42,736 nucleotides of DNA from a virus: the IMG/VR virus record IMGVR_UViG_3300042197_000570, positions 1 to 42,736 of that record; one strand, given 5' to 3'. How positions within the stretch are numbered: position 1 is the stretch's first letter; every line of letters starts with the position of its first letter. Under the pieces are notes generated by a model. The model was given only the letters and a program-made list of their open reading frames with translations, was not told the DNA's origin and did not search any database. The translations under genes and the position numbers were made by a program. Below, piece after piece: positions 38,716-42,736 of the stretch.

Positions 38716-39255
38716 ATGGAAATTGAACTAGCGGATCATTATGACCGCATGAATAAGGTGGTAGGCGAATTGCTAAAAGGCAACAATCCTACCCAGATTG
38801 CCTCTCTAACGGGTTTTAAGCGAGCAGAGGTTCTAGAGTATATCGACCAGTGGAAAGAGGTCGTTAGAAACGATTCTACGGCCCGTGAAAGGGCAAAGGA
38901 AGCCGTATCTGGCGCAGACCAACATTACGCTATGTTGATAAAAGAGGCCTGGAAGACCATAGAGGATGCAGACCAGGCTGGCCAATTAAATGTAAAAGCA
39001 ACCGCCCTAAAGCTAATTGCAGACATTGAAGGTAAAAGAATTGGCATGCTGCAAGAAGTAGGCTTGCTAGATAATGCAGAGCTGGCAAATCAAATTGCAG
39101 AAACAGAACACAAACAAGACATCCTTGTAAAAATATTAAAAGAAGTAACAGCAACATGTCCAAAATGTAAAATGGATGTTGCAAAGCGTCTATCTCAAAT
39201 TACAGGGGTAGTTGAACCAGTTATTATAGATACAGAGCAGGTAAGTGGATCTTAA
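38716..39255 (+). CDS. Terminase small subunit
   Basis: The 179-residue protein begins at ATG 38716; the frame has a stop just upstream (38704), so no longer start exists. An N-terminal HTH (GNNPTQIASLTGFKRAEVLE, 22-41) would recognise the packaging site. A long helical central region (about 55-145) fits the oligomerisation domain, and a C-terminal CPKC pair (C148, C151) may bind zinc. Position directly before the large terminase confirms the role. It would deliver phage DNA to the packaging motor. Confidence 0.8.
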   Translation: MEIELADHYDRMNKVVGELLKGNNPTQIASLTGFKRAEVLEYIDQWKEVVRNDSTARERAKEAVSGADQHYAMLIKEAWKTIEDADQAGQLNVKATALKLIADIEGKRIGMLQEVGLLDNAELANQIAETEHKQDILVKILKEVTATCPKCKMDVAKRLSQITGVVEPVIIDTEQVSGS

Positions 39256-41032
39256 TTTTAATGACCTGATAGATATATTGGATGGCGAAGAGTTTGATGA
39301 GCGTCCAGTAGATTTGCGTACCTTTGTTACTGACCCAAATTATCTAGGGCTACCGCCCCTATCTGATTATCAATATACTTTAATTGAAAAGTCATCTCAG
39401 ATTTATAAAGAGGCTACCCTGATTAAATTATTTGGAGAAGAAGAAGGCAAACGTAGATTTAAACAAACTTGTAATGAGGTTGTTGCACAATTAGGAAAGG
39501 GTAGTGGAAAAGACTATTGCTCCACTATTTCAGTATCTTATATAGTATATTTACTATTATGCTTAAAAGACCCAGCAACATATTACGGTAAACCGCCTGG
39601 AGATACAATTGATATCTTAAATATTGCGGTTAACGCACAGCAGGCAAACAACGTTTTTTTTAAAGGACTTAAAACAAGAATTAGTAGATCGCCATGGTTT
39701 GTAGGTAAATATGACCCTAAAGCATCAGAAATTATATTTGATAAAAGCGTAAACGTTTATTCTGGTCACTCAGAAAGAGAAGCATTCGAAGGATATAACG
39801 TGATAGCCGTAATCCTTGACGAAATTTCAGGTTTTGCCACAGAGAATACTACTGGCCACGATCAAGCTAAAACAGCAGATGCAATATATTCTATGTATCG
39901 TGGATCTGTTATATCTCGTTTTCCAGACTATGGCAAGGTTATATTACTCTCATTCCCTCGATTTAAAAATGATCCAATTCAAAAATTTTACGACTCTGTA
40001 ATTGCAGAAAAAGAAACAGTTATTAGAAGCAAGACTATGAAGATGGATGACGATCTTCCAGACGGTACTCAGGGTAATGAGATAACAGTCGAATGGGAAG
40101 AAGATCATATAAAATCTTATATGTTTCCTAAAACATATGCTTTAAAGCGCCCTACTTGGGAAGTAAATCCAACTAAAAAAATTGAAGACTTTAAGGTAGA
40201 TTTTTATAGAGATATGCCAGATTCATTAAGTAGGTTTGCTTGCATGCCTCCAGAGGCAGTAGATGCGTTTTTCAAGTCAAGAGAAAAAATCGAAAAGGCA
40301 TTTAATAATACAGCATTAGCGGTAGATGAGTTTGGAAGACTAGAGCCTTGGTTTAAAGCAGATCCCAATAAAGATTATTTTATACACGTAGACTTGGCCC
40401 AGAAACATGACCATTGTGCAGTTGCAATATCTCATGTAAAGAATTGGGTTAATGTAAAAGTTACAGATGTATTTTCGCAAGCAGCTCCCGTAGTTGAGGT
40501 AGATGCTGTTAGATATTGGACGCCTACAGCAGACAAGTCTGTTGACTTTACAGAAGTAAAAGATTATATTATTGGTCTGAGATCTGCTGGGTTTAACATT
40601 CGTATGTGTACATTTGACCGATGGAATTCACACGACATGATGCAACAACTAAAAGCATATGGAATTAATACAGAAACGTTATCCGTATCTAAACGACATT
40701 ATGAAGATATGGCAATGATTATACTTGAAGAAAGATTATCTGGACCGCATATCCCATTGCTTATTGACGAATTATTACAATTAAAGATTATGAGAGATAA
40801 GGTAGACCACCCTAGAAAAGGATCCAAAGACTTGGCGGACGCCGTTTGTGGATCTGTATATAATGCAATAAGTAGGTCTAAAAATGACAGTATTGAGGAA
40901 ATAGAAGTACATACTTACGACCCGTATTCTTGGGATAGAGAAGAAGAAACGGCAGTTAGAAGTAATGTTATCCGTGCCCCTAAAATGCCTCAACATCTAG
41001 AAGATGTACTAAATGGAATGGAAATAGTATGA
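39245..41032 (+). CDS. Terminase large subunit
   Basis: The 595-residue motor protein starts at GTG 39245, overlapping the small subunit gene. The ATPase domain has GKGSGKD (84-90), where the usual S/T after GK is Asp, and Walker B AVILDEIS (188-195, D192-E193). The C-terminal nuclease half begins at FIHVDLAQKHDHCAVA (about 380-395) with an acidic D, contains TFDRWNSHDMM (about 458-468), and ends with KDLADAVCGSVYNA (about 528-541). Together the domains pump and cut DNA at the portal. Its stop overlaps the next start. Confidence 0.92.
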   Translation: MDLNFNDLIDILDGEEFDERPVDLRTFVTDPNYLGLPPLSDYQYTLIEKSSQIYKEATLIKLFGEEEGKRRFKQTCNEVVAQLGKGSGKDYCSTISVSYIVYLLLCLKDPATYYGKPPGDTIDILNIAVNAQQANNVFFKGLKTRISRSPWFVGKYDPKASEIIFDKSVNVYSGHSEREAFEGYNVIAVILDEISGFATENTTGHDQAKTADAIYSMYRGSVISRFPDYGKVILLSFPRFKNDPIQKFYDSVIAEKETVIRSKTMKMDDDLPDGTQGNEITVEWEEDHIKSYMFPKTYALKRPTWEVNPTKKIEDFKVDFYRDMPDSLSRFACMPPEAVDAFFKSREKIEKAFNNTALAVDEFGRLEPWFKADPNKDYFIHVDLAQKHDHCAVAISHVKNWVNVKVTDVFSQAAPVVEVDAVRYWTPTADKSVDFTEVKDYIIGLRSAGFNIRMCTFDRWNSHDMMQQLKAYGINTETLSVSKRHYEDMAMIILEERLSGPHIPLLIDELLQLKIMRDKVDHPRKGSKDLADAVCGSVYNAISRSKNDSIEEIEVHTYDPYSWDREEETAVRSNVIRAPKMPQHLEDVLNGMEIV

Positions 41033-42052: not shown

Positions 42053-42232
42053 ATGCCATACGACGTAAGACAAGGCGCAGCAGGATGCAAAGGCTGGGCG
42101 GTAGTAAATGATAAAGGTGAACTTAAAGGTTGCCACCCATCTAAATCTAGAGCACAGGCACATCAAAGAGCCCTATATGCAGCCACTGCAAATGAAGAAA
42201 AAATAAAAGAAAAAGATAAAAAGATTTTCTAG
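42053..42232 (+). CDS. 59-residue protein with GWAVV...GCH motif
   Basis: ATG 42053 has AGGAGG (42044-42049) just upstream; the frame ends at TAG 42230. The sequence contains CKGWAVVNDKGELKGCHPSK and SRAQAHQRALYAATA, a compact motif (C-x-G-W-A-V-V ... G-x-x-x-G-C-H-x-S-K-x-x-A ... A-L-Y-A) that I recall as a module near phage portal or protease genes. The lysine-rich end is separate. Its place at the start of the portal-side region fits. The function is unknown. Confidence 0.7.
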   Translation: MPYDVRQGAAGCKGWAVVNDKGELKGCHPSKSRAQAHQRALYAATANEEKIKEKDKKIF

Positions 42233-42249
42233 ACTTTAAAATACCAGTT

Positions 42250-42288
42250 TGATATAATATATGTGGGTCGCCATTAGGGGCCCACATA
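42250..42288 (+). promoter_or_regulatory. Hsp20 promoter with palindrome across its start site
   Basis: TGATATAAT at 42250-42258 is an extended -10. A perfect 8-bp inverted repeat, TATGTGGG (42260-42267) and CCCACATA (42281-42288), begins one base later, so it spans the expected start (about 42265). An operator is more likely than a transcript hairpin, because its left arm is mostly upstream of the start. Confidence 0.65.
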
Positions 42289-42294
42289 AATTAA

Positions 42295-42314
42295 CTTATT
42301 CGCTTAATAGGAGG
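42295..42314 (+). promoter_or_regulatory. Hairpin that can mask the Hsp20 ribosome site
   Basis: CTTATT (42295-42300) can pair with AATAGG (42306-42311, one U-G pair) around the loop CGCTT. This covers AGG of the SD AGGAGG (42309-42314). The stem is short and weak, as expected of a heat-labile element, but folding must be calculated. Function is inference. Confidence 0.4.
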
Positions 42315-42320
42315 AATAAA

Positions 42321-42736
42321 ATGGTAACAACATATACATGGGACCTTTTCAAGGATCCCTTTTTTATTGGATTTGATAGGGCTTTAGATACATGGAATCA
42401 TGTTCAGAACGTATCAAGTGCAACTAACTATCCACCATATAATCTAATCAAGGTAGACGAAGACAACTTTGTTGTCGAATTAGCTGTTGCTGGATTTGAT
42501 AAGACAGACATTGATGTATCAACAGCAGACGGCAAGCTTACTGTAAAGGGAGAATTAAAGACGGAGGATAACGATTCGAAGTTTATTCACCGTGGAATTG
42601 CTGCCCGTAAATTTACTCGTGAGTGGGCTCTTGGTGAATATATGGAAGTAAAGGCTGCAGAACTCTGTTGCGGAATGCTAAAGATTGATATCGTACGCAT
42701 TTTGCCTGAAGAAAAGAAGCCAAAGACTATCAAGAT
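42321..42736 (+). CDS. Small heat shock protein, Hsp20/IbpA type, 3' partial
   Basis: ATG 42321 with AGGAGG starts a frame that runs off the right edge after 138 codons. The alpha-crystallin domain begins at YPPYNLIKVDEDNFVVELAV and continues with AGFDKTDIDVSTADGKLTVK, a HRGIAARKFTREWALG segment, then CCGMLKIDIVRILPEEKKPK, close to E. coli IbpA in pattern. The canonical N-G-L-L before the last strand is C-C-G-M-L here. Hsp20 proteins hold unfolding proteins in solution. In this position, among packaging and probable portal genes, it may assist capsid assembly or protect virion proteins. Its 5' region carries possible control elements. Confidence 0.9.
   Translation, partial: MVTTYTWDLFKDPFFIGFDRALDTWNHVQNVSSATNYPPYNLIKVDEDNFVVELAVAGFDKTDIDVSTADGKLTVKGELKTEDNDSKFIHRGIAARKFTREWALGEYMEVKAAELCCGMLKIDIVRILPEEKKPKTIK

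Follow-up and report, generated by a model that had tools for sequence, protein, structure and literature searches.

A short ROSE-like leader, probably an RNA thermometer, upstream of hsp20 in a likely actinobacteriophage

The hsp20 locus and its promoter

The record analysed is a linear virus contig of 42,736 bases, the whole of which is referred to here as the window. Its large terminase and major capsid protein were closest to those of Streptomyces phages (64% and 57% identity, respectively), and on the basis of these relationships the virus is very probably an actinobacteriophage. The last gene of the record is hsp20, of which 138 codons are present, the 3' part lying beyond the end of the record (Table 1). 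An earlier note, made from the letters of the window, had recognised an alpha-crystallin-type gene start at this position, and this was borne out by matches of the ORF beginning at ATG 42321 to the alpha-crystallin small heat-shock protein family PF00011 (E=1.5e-18) and to phrog_432 ‘Hsp20’ (E=1.2e-39). An in-frame ATG at 42261 was rejected as the start codon since it sits in a hairpin arm and is not conserved. The gene had also been described as adjoining the packaging genes; the terminase gene is indeed nearby, ending 1.2-1.3 kb upstream, but an 83-aa ORF, an HNH endonuclease gene and two small ORFs intervene. tRNA genes lie near hsp20 in several relatives, and in one of these four are found within approximately 0.7 kb upstream of it (L002:2400-3034).

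Table 1. Coordinates of the features identified at the hsp20 locus of the window.
Feature	Position	Strand	Basis
Large terminase gene	39245-41032		
Sigma-70-type promoter: weak -35 TAGACT, 17-nt spacer, extended -10 TGATATAAT	42230..42258	+	Promoter match and conservation
Extended -10 TGATATAAT	42250-42258	+	
RNA hairpin I, UAUGUGGGUC-[G42270 bulge]-CC-AUUA-GG-GGCCCACAUA (the palindrome of the earlier note)	42260..42288	+	RNAfold, compensatory changes, bulged G in relatives
Conserved linker AATTAAC	42289..42295	+	Alignment of leaders
RNA hairpin II, SD-masking, UUAUUC-[G42302]-CUU / GAG-GAAUAA, 5-nt loop	42296..42319	+	RNAfold MFE, RNAalifold
Anti-SD UCGCU (ROSE hallmark U[U/C]GCU) with bulged G42302	42300..42304	+	Fold, motif definition (PMC11182007, PMC3669281)
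Shine-Dalgarno (SD) AGGAGGA (including GGAGG 42310-42314)	42309..42315	+	
hsp20, IbpA-like small heat-shock protein	42321..42736	+	PF00011, phrog_432, PDB sequence relatives

The promoter upstream of hsp20 (TAGACT-17-TATAAT) matches the consensus at 10 of 12 positions. The extended -10 proposed in the earlier note is present, and a -10 of the TGN-TATAAT type is kept in all 106 unique upstream regions of the phage group to which the window belongs, placed 53-63 nt before the ATG. Transcription from this promoter would be expected to start at approximately 42263-42265. No intrinsic terminator was found.

In the Hsp20 tree the phage proteins fall outside the actinobacterial-host clade (support 97/100), a placement on which recent capture of hsp20 from the host was rejected, and also outside the main proteobacterial IbpA clade, with the exception of the protein from phage Phosso (L207). 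Support inside the phage part of the tree was weak.

Two hairpins in the hsp20 leader

The palindrome TATGTGGG-N13-CCCACATA, which had been noted at the predicted start site and taken for an operator, is exact and present as a single copy in the window, where 0.16 copies with up to three mismatches would be expected by chance. Folded as RNA, these bases form hairpin I, a helix of 12 bp (ten pairs, the bulged G42270, two pairs and a 4-nt loop) which begins at the expected transcription start or immediately upstream of it, and which is predicted by RNAfold to have a free energy of -18.4 kcal/mol at 37 C and to be stable at each temperature tried. Among the actinophage loci (80 viral loci with Hsp20s 86-95% identical) the sequence of hairpin I shifts with compensatory substitutions; arm variants found in relatives include TGTGGG, TGCGGG, TTAGG, CAGGAT and GTACC, G-U pairs are frequent, and across leaders the outer pairs use most of the standard pair types. 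The bulge was examined in fold predictions of 48-nt upstream segments, counting those folds with a single 5' bulge, and the bulged base was G in 124/124 such leaders (76/76 actinophage, 42/42 pelagiphage-like and 6/6 named-phage leaders). Covariation in hairpin I, scored on sequence-based alignments of 30 diverse phages, was 0.474 as against 0.210 for shuffles (0/500), and reached 0.280 at most when the register was slid. Within the actinophage group hairpins I and II scored jointly gave 0.159 versus 0.113 for shuffles (0/500). The MAFFT alignments mis-register some columns of hairpin I and of the SD, and the pair counts derived from them are thus underestimates.

The exactness and uniqueness of the palindrome stand, but its reading as an operator is not supported. 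The arms drift whilst their pairing is preserved, G-U pairs are common, and a bulged G is nearly always present on one side only, which argues for an RNA stem as opposed to a protein site, and the palindrome is better read as hairpin I. Neither the conserved recognition sequence nor the repeated sites of a DNA operator were found, the window having a single site of this kind. In some members of the group complementarity extends upstream past the likely transcription start, to 1-2 nt from the -10; a secondary role in the DNA, or a start nearer to the -10, is possible on this account.

Hairpin II is the fold preferred by RNAfold for the remainder of the leader (-4.9 kcal/mol at 37 C), in which 42296-42305 pairs with 42311-42319 and most of the SD is paired. 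The SD contains two overlapping copies of AGGA, and the long helix uses the second (42312-42315) opposite the anti-SD; G42302 is unpaired in the MFE structure at all temperatures computed. The same helix, including the G bulge of the anti-SD, was recovered in the RNAalifold consensus of 33 leaders. Within the actinophage group 96.6% of the alignment cells of hairpin II are paired, with three pairs invariant and none changing on both sides, and the helix is nearly invariant although Hsp20 identity spans 46-95%. Hairpin II is thus too conserved to covary in the actinophages, and its support comes instead from the motif and from comparison between phage groups, in which the pair beside the anti-SD core is C-G in 43 cases, U-A in 21, U-G in two and A-U in one, and the extensions of the helix are matched group by group (UUAUUC/GAAUAA, CUC/GAG, AAC/GUU and AAACUU/GGUUU).

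The earlier note had placed its SD mask elsewhere, in a weaker hairpin at 42295-42311. This hairpin was rejected, as its predicted energy is close to zero (-0.3 kcal/mol at 37 C, with the structure gone at 42 C) and it is not conserved: its 3' arm, AATAGG, is GAAGG or AAAGG in the great majority of relatives, making the stem impossible whilst the SD is kept, which is the very outcome named in advance as counting against it. The underlying idea of a thermometer-type leader which masks the SD has fared better, being upheld by the conservation, the covariation and the ROSE hallmark, with hairpin II as the mask.

The computed opening of the SD in the window was 0.000 at 20 C, 0.002 at 30 C, 0.004 at 37 C, 0.015 at 45 C and 0.071 at 55 C, which lies within the range of proteobacterial leaders of the ROSE type computed identically. 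However, these values should be considered with caution: RNAfold leaves the SD mostly closed even at 45 C, as it does in most of the proteobacterial leaders, so that the calculation does not discriminate, and the absolute values are untrustworthy because ROSE helices contain non-canonical pairs which lie outside the energy model.

Relationship to ROSE elements and distribution among phages

ROSE-like thermometers are defined by the hallmark U(U/C)GCU, by two to four hairpins and by a downstream small heat-shock gene (PMC11182007, PMC3669281). In the window the hairpin nearest the gene pairs the anti-SD U(U/C)GCU imperfectly with the SD, a bulged G (G42302) is predicted in the anti-SD strand, and the small heat-shock gene has two hairpins in its 5' UTR. 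The anti-SD strand, UUAUUCGCUU, lacks the four consecutive U opposite the SD that typify a fourU element. The best match in Rfam was ROSE_3 (RF02523), to which the whole leader aligned (1-69/69) at 18.9 bits (E=0.057); the best phage relatives scored 39.9, 35.1 and 34.1 bits, and the gathering cut-off of 43 bits was reached by 0/41 records, the E. coli and Caulobacter controls also falling below it. The window leader resembles a ROSE element, and probably acts as one, without being a member of Rfam ROSE_3. The freshwater-2 RNA of Rfam was considered on account of a full-length alignment ending at the start codon (19.5 bits, E 0.42-2.2), and was rejected because its stems fit poorly and 0/10 relatives match at E<=0.5.

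The leader bears most of the features of the short ROSE-like element of Pseudomonas ibpA (PMC3669281), namely two hairpins in a 5' UTR of about 60 nt, a stable hairpin I, a 3' hairpin which masks the SD through U(U/C)GCU, and a downstream small heat-shock protein of the IbpA type. It differs in being phage-encoded (with actinobacterial hosts), in having an extended -10 promoter of the sigma-70 type as opposed to sigma-32, in the conserved bulged G of a hairpin I which begins beside the transcription start, and in that its temperature response would be expected by analogy. In ROSE_3, too, hairpin I carries this bulged G (GGAU-G-CC...GG-GUCC in many relatives) and is followed by an anti-SD/SD helix, but the window and its phage relatives (18.9 and <=39.9 bits) lie below its cut-off of 43. 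The classical ROSE elements (Bradyrhizobium ROSE1, E. coli ibpA) also have the anti-SD motif, the bulged G and a small heat-shock gene, and contain three to four hairpins as compared to two here; reviews assign them to the alpha- and gamma-proteobacteria and cite a ROSE-like example from Anabaena (PMC3669281, PMC4166951). Masking of the ribosome-binding site in the leader of a small heat-shock gene is likewise a property of the cyanobacterial hsp17 thermometer. The known phage thermometers, lambda cIII, SPbeta blyA and gut-phage sigma70 (PMC11182007), are also temperature-responsive leaders of phage genes, but are not described as being of the ROSE type and are not found on small heat-shock genes; cIII toggles between two conformations, and the sigma70 candidate was identified by searching for fourU-type elements (PMC11182007).

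The distribution of the leader was analysed by scanning 2.9 million viral contigs with the sequence of hairpin II alone, which matched at least 120 stretches; in the 200 sequences examined, 186/186 occurrences lay directly before an hsp20 start, the Hsp20s being as little as 46% identical to that of the window. For a second variant of the leader, 106 of 120 matches were directly before hsp20, and most of the others preceded a 70-aa ORF, with hsp20 following 2-16 nt after it in 6/6 cases examined. This helical ORF of about 70 aa with a ROSE-like leader (L411:2023-2232, L437:2669-2878, L461:5340-5561, L472, L510 and others) is phasin-like by eye and had no Pfam match above the cut-off; together with hsp20 it possibly forms a two-gene stress operon. 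The window Hsp20 protein used alone as a query matched 507/50,697 phage records.

UYGCU with an SD within 40 nt of the hsp20 start was found in 67/67, 47/50 and 8/10 unique phage leaders of three sets, as against 1.2, 0.6 and 0.1 expected in dinucleotide shuffles, and in 69/71 bacterial hsp20 leaders, nearly all proteobacterial, which served as a positive control. Within the same viral loci the motif precedes 112/115 hsp20 genes (97%) but only 12/659 other SD-bearing genes (1.8%). A covariance model built from 30 leaders matched 52/53 viral loci, its viral matches being confined to the leaders of hsp20 or the hsp20 operon (873 kb), and matched in addition four contigs from bacterial genomes, one of them the chromosome of an actinobacterial MAG (L384, E=7e-9).

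The same layout was found in the pelagiphages HTVC115P, HTVC103P and Mosig, the cyanophages S-PM2, S-CRM01 and S-CREM1, the Methylophilales phage Melnitz-3 and Sinorhizobium phage Phosso; the UYGCU leader was absent in 2/10 named phages, Vibrio phage PWH3a-P1 (L205) and cyanophage S-TIM5 (L208). The Hsp20s of the latter two form the longest phage branches in the tree. Used as a query, S-PM2 Hsp20 retrieved two loci only from the viral contigs. A pelagiphage-like group (L345-L350, L370) has the same kind of hairpin I together with AACGCUUAACGGAGG, a shortened anti-SD missed by the strict motif. In bacteria, the window type of hsp20 was present in 11/151 genomes from the order of one actinobacterial MAG, and the motif in 8/13 actinobacterial MAG hsp20 leaders examined; chromosomal hsp20 genes with ROSE-like leaders were seen in freshwater actinobacterial MAGs (L384:1439-1503, L375-L386). 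The Rhodobacteraceae MAG Water_Bin34 contains three different phage-like hsp20 contigs (L210, L212, L213), perhaps binned phage DNA.

It seems likely that a ROSE-like thermometer joined to hsp20 is a widespread viral regulatory cassette and the standard leader of phage hsp20 genes, in phages of actinobacteria, SAR11, cyanobacteria, Methylophilales and rhizobia, and that it also occurs on some freshwater actinobacterial chromosomes. The earlier note had held that a phage copy with two stacked control elements beside packaging genes would be unusual; for phage hsp20 genes such a leader is the rule, being carried by nearly all of those examined.

Control of Hsp20 synthesis and its implications

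We consider with good confidence that the leader at 42250-42320 is a short ROSE-like RNA thermometer which would control the translation of the phage hsp20; its structure is well supported, whilst the temperature response is proposed by analogy with bacterial elements. The gene would be transcribed from its own extended -10 promoter, giving a 5' UTR of about 55 nt that would fold into two hairpins. The stable hairpin I, with its one bulged G, would lie at or beside the 5' end; in hairpin II the SD, together with the bases immediately preceding the start codon, would be masked by the anti-SD UUAUUCGCUU. As hairpin II is imperfect (a bulged G, a U-G pair and a high A-U content), warming would shift it towards an open ribosome-binding site, as in bacterial ROSE elements, and so may lead to more Hsp20 being made when infected cells are under heat or proteotoxic stress. 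Conservation of the GIxxR arginine leads us to add a further putative step, in which Hsp20 may repress its own translation through the leader until it is titrated by aggregates, as does E. coli IbpA.

An alternative is that the leader is a structured SD mask which serves mainly for such autoregulation and senses temperature directly to little extent. E. coli IbpA represses its own translation via its 5' UTR and requires R93 to bind it (PMC10474464); the matching arginine (GIxxR) is found in all of the phage Hsp20s aligned, whereas IbpB, which lacks self-repression, does not have it, and water temperature varies less than a laboratory heat shock. However, GIxxR is common in small heat-shock proteins of this kind and could have other roles, and direct melting is the established mode of action for ROSE leaders of such anatomy. 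The two modes are also compatible, and we regard autoregulation in place of thermosensing as unlikely.

A thermometer also appears to be a far better explanation than one in which the sole function of hairpin I is to stabilise the mRNA at its 5' end and the SD hairpin arises incidentally from conservation of the sequence for translation initiation. Hairpin I is certainly very stable at all temperatures, and that of the short Pseudomonas element stays folded and can be deleted with thermoregulation kept (PMC3669281), but the near invariance of the anti-SD stretch where Hsp20 falls to 46% identity, the joint changes of the arms in other phages (UUAUUC/GAAUAA, CUC/GAG, AAACUU/GGUUU) and the lack of the motif before control genes make this very improbable. 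Least probable of all is an operator role for the DNA at 42260-42288, at which a repressor or activator would bind across the start site, since an exact palindrome there, and complementarity running almost to the -10 in part of the group, are outweighed by compensated arm differences with many G-U pairs and a one-sided bulged G, by the single site in the window and by the same RNA architecture in unrelated phages.

The papers on phage small heat-shock proteins that were checked treat the protein and not its control, and a survey of these proteins in marine viruses makes no mention of RNA, promoters or upstream regions. In the open-access literature searched, no phage was described as carrying a ROSE element, nor did the same literature yield a report of ROSE in connection with Actinobacteria and small heat-shock proteins; a paper from 2024 counted very few phage RNA thermometers. 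If the reading proposed here is true, viruses and Actinobacteria would each gain their first ROSE class, and phages would adjust the amount of chaperone to temperature without depending on the transcriptional heat-shock response of the host. Should these leaders be thermometers, ROSE-like elements would extend past the Proteobacteria and Anabaena to viruses and Actinobacteria, and a large group would be added to the few phage thermometers known. Aquatic phages commonly have hsp20 genes, and on this reading phages would carry a heat sensor of their own at the level of translation, which would provide a testable link between water temperature and infection.
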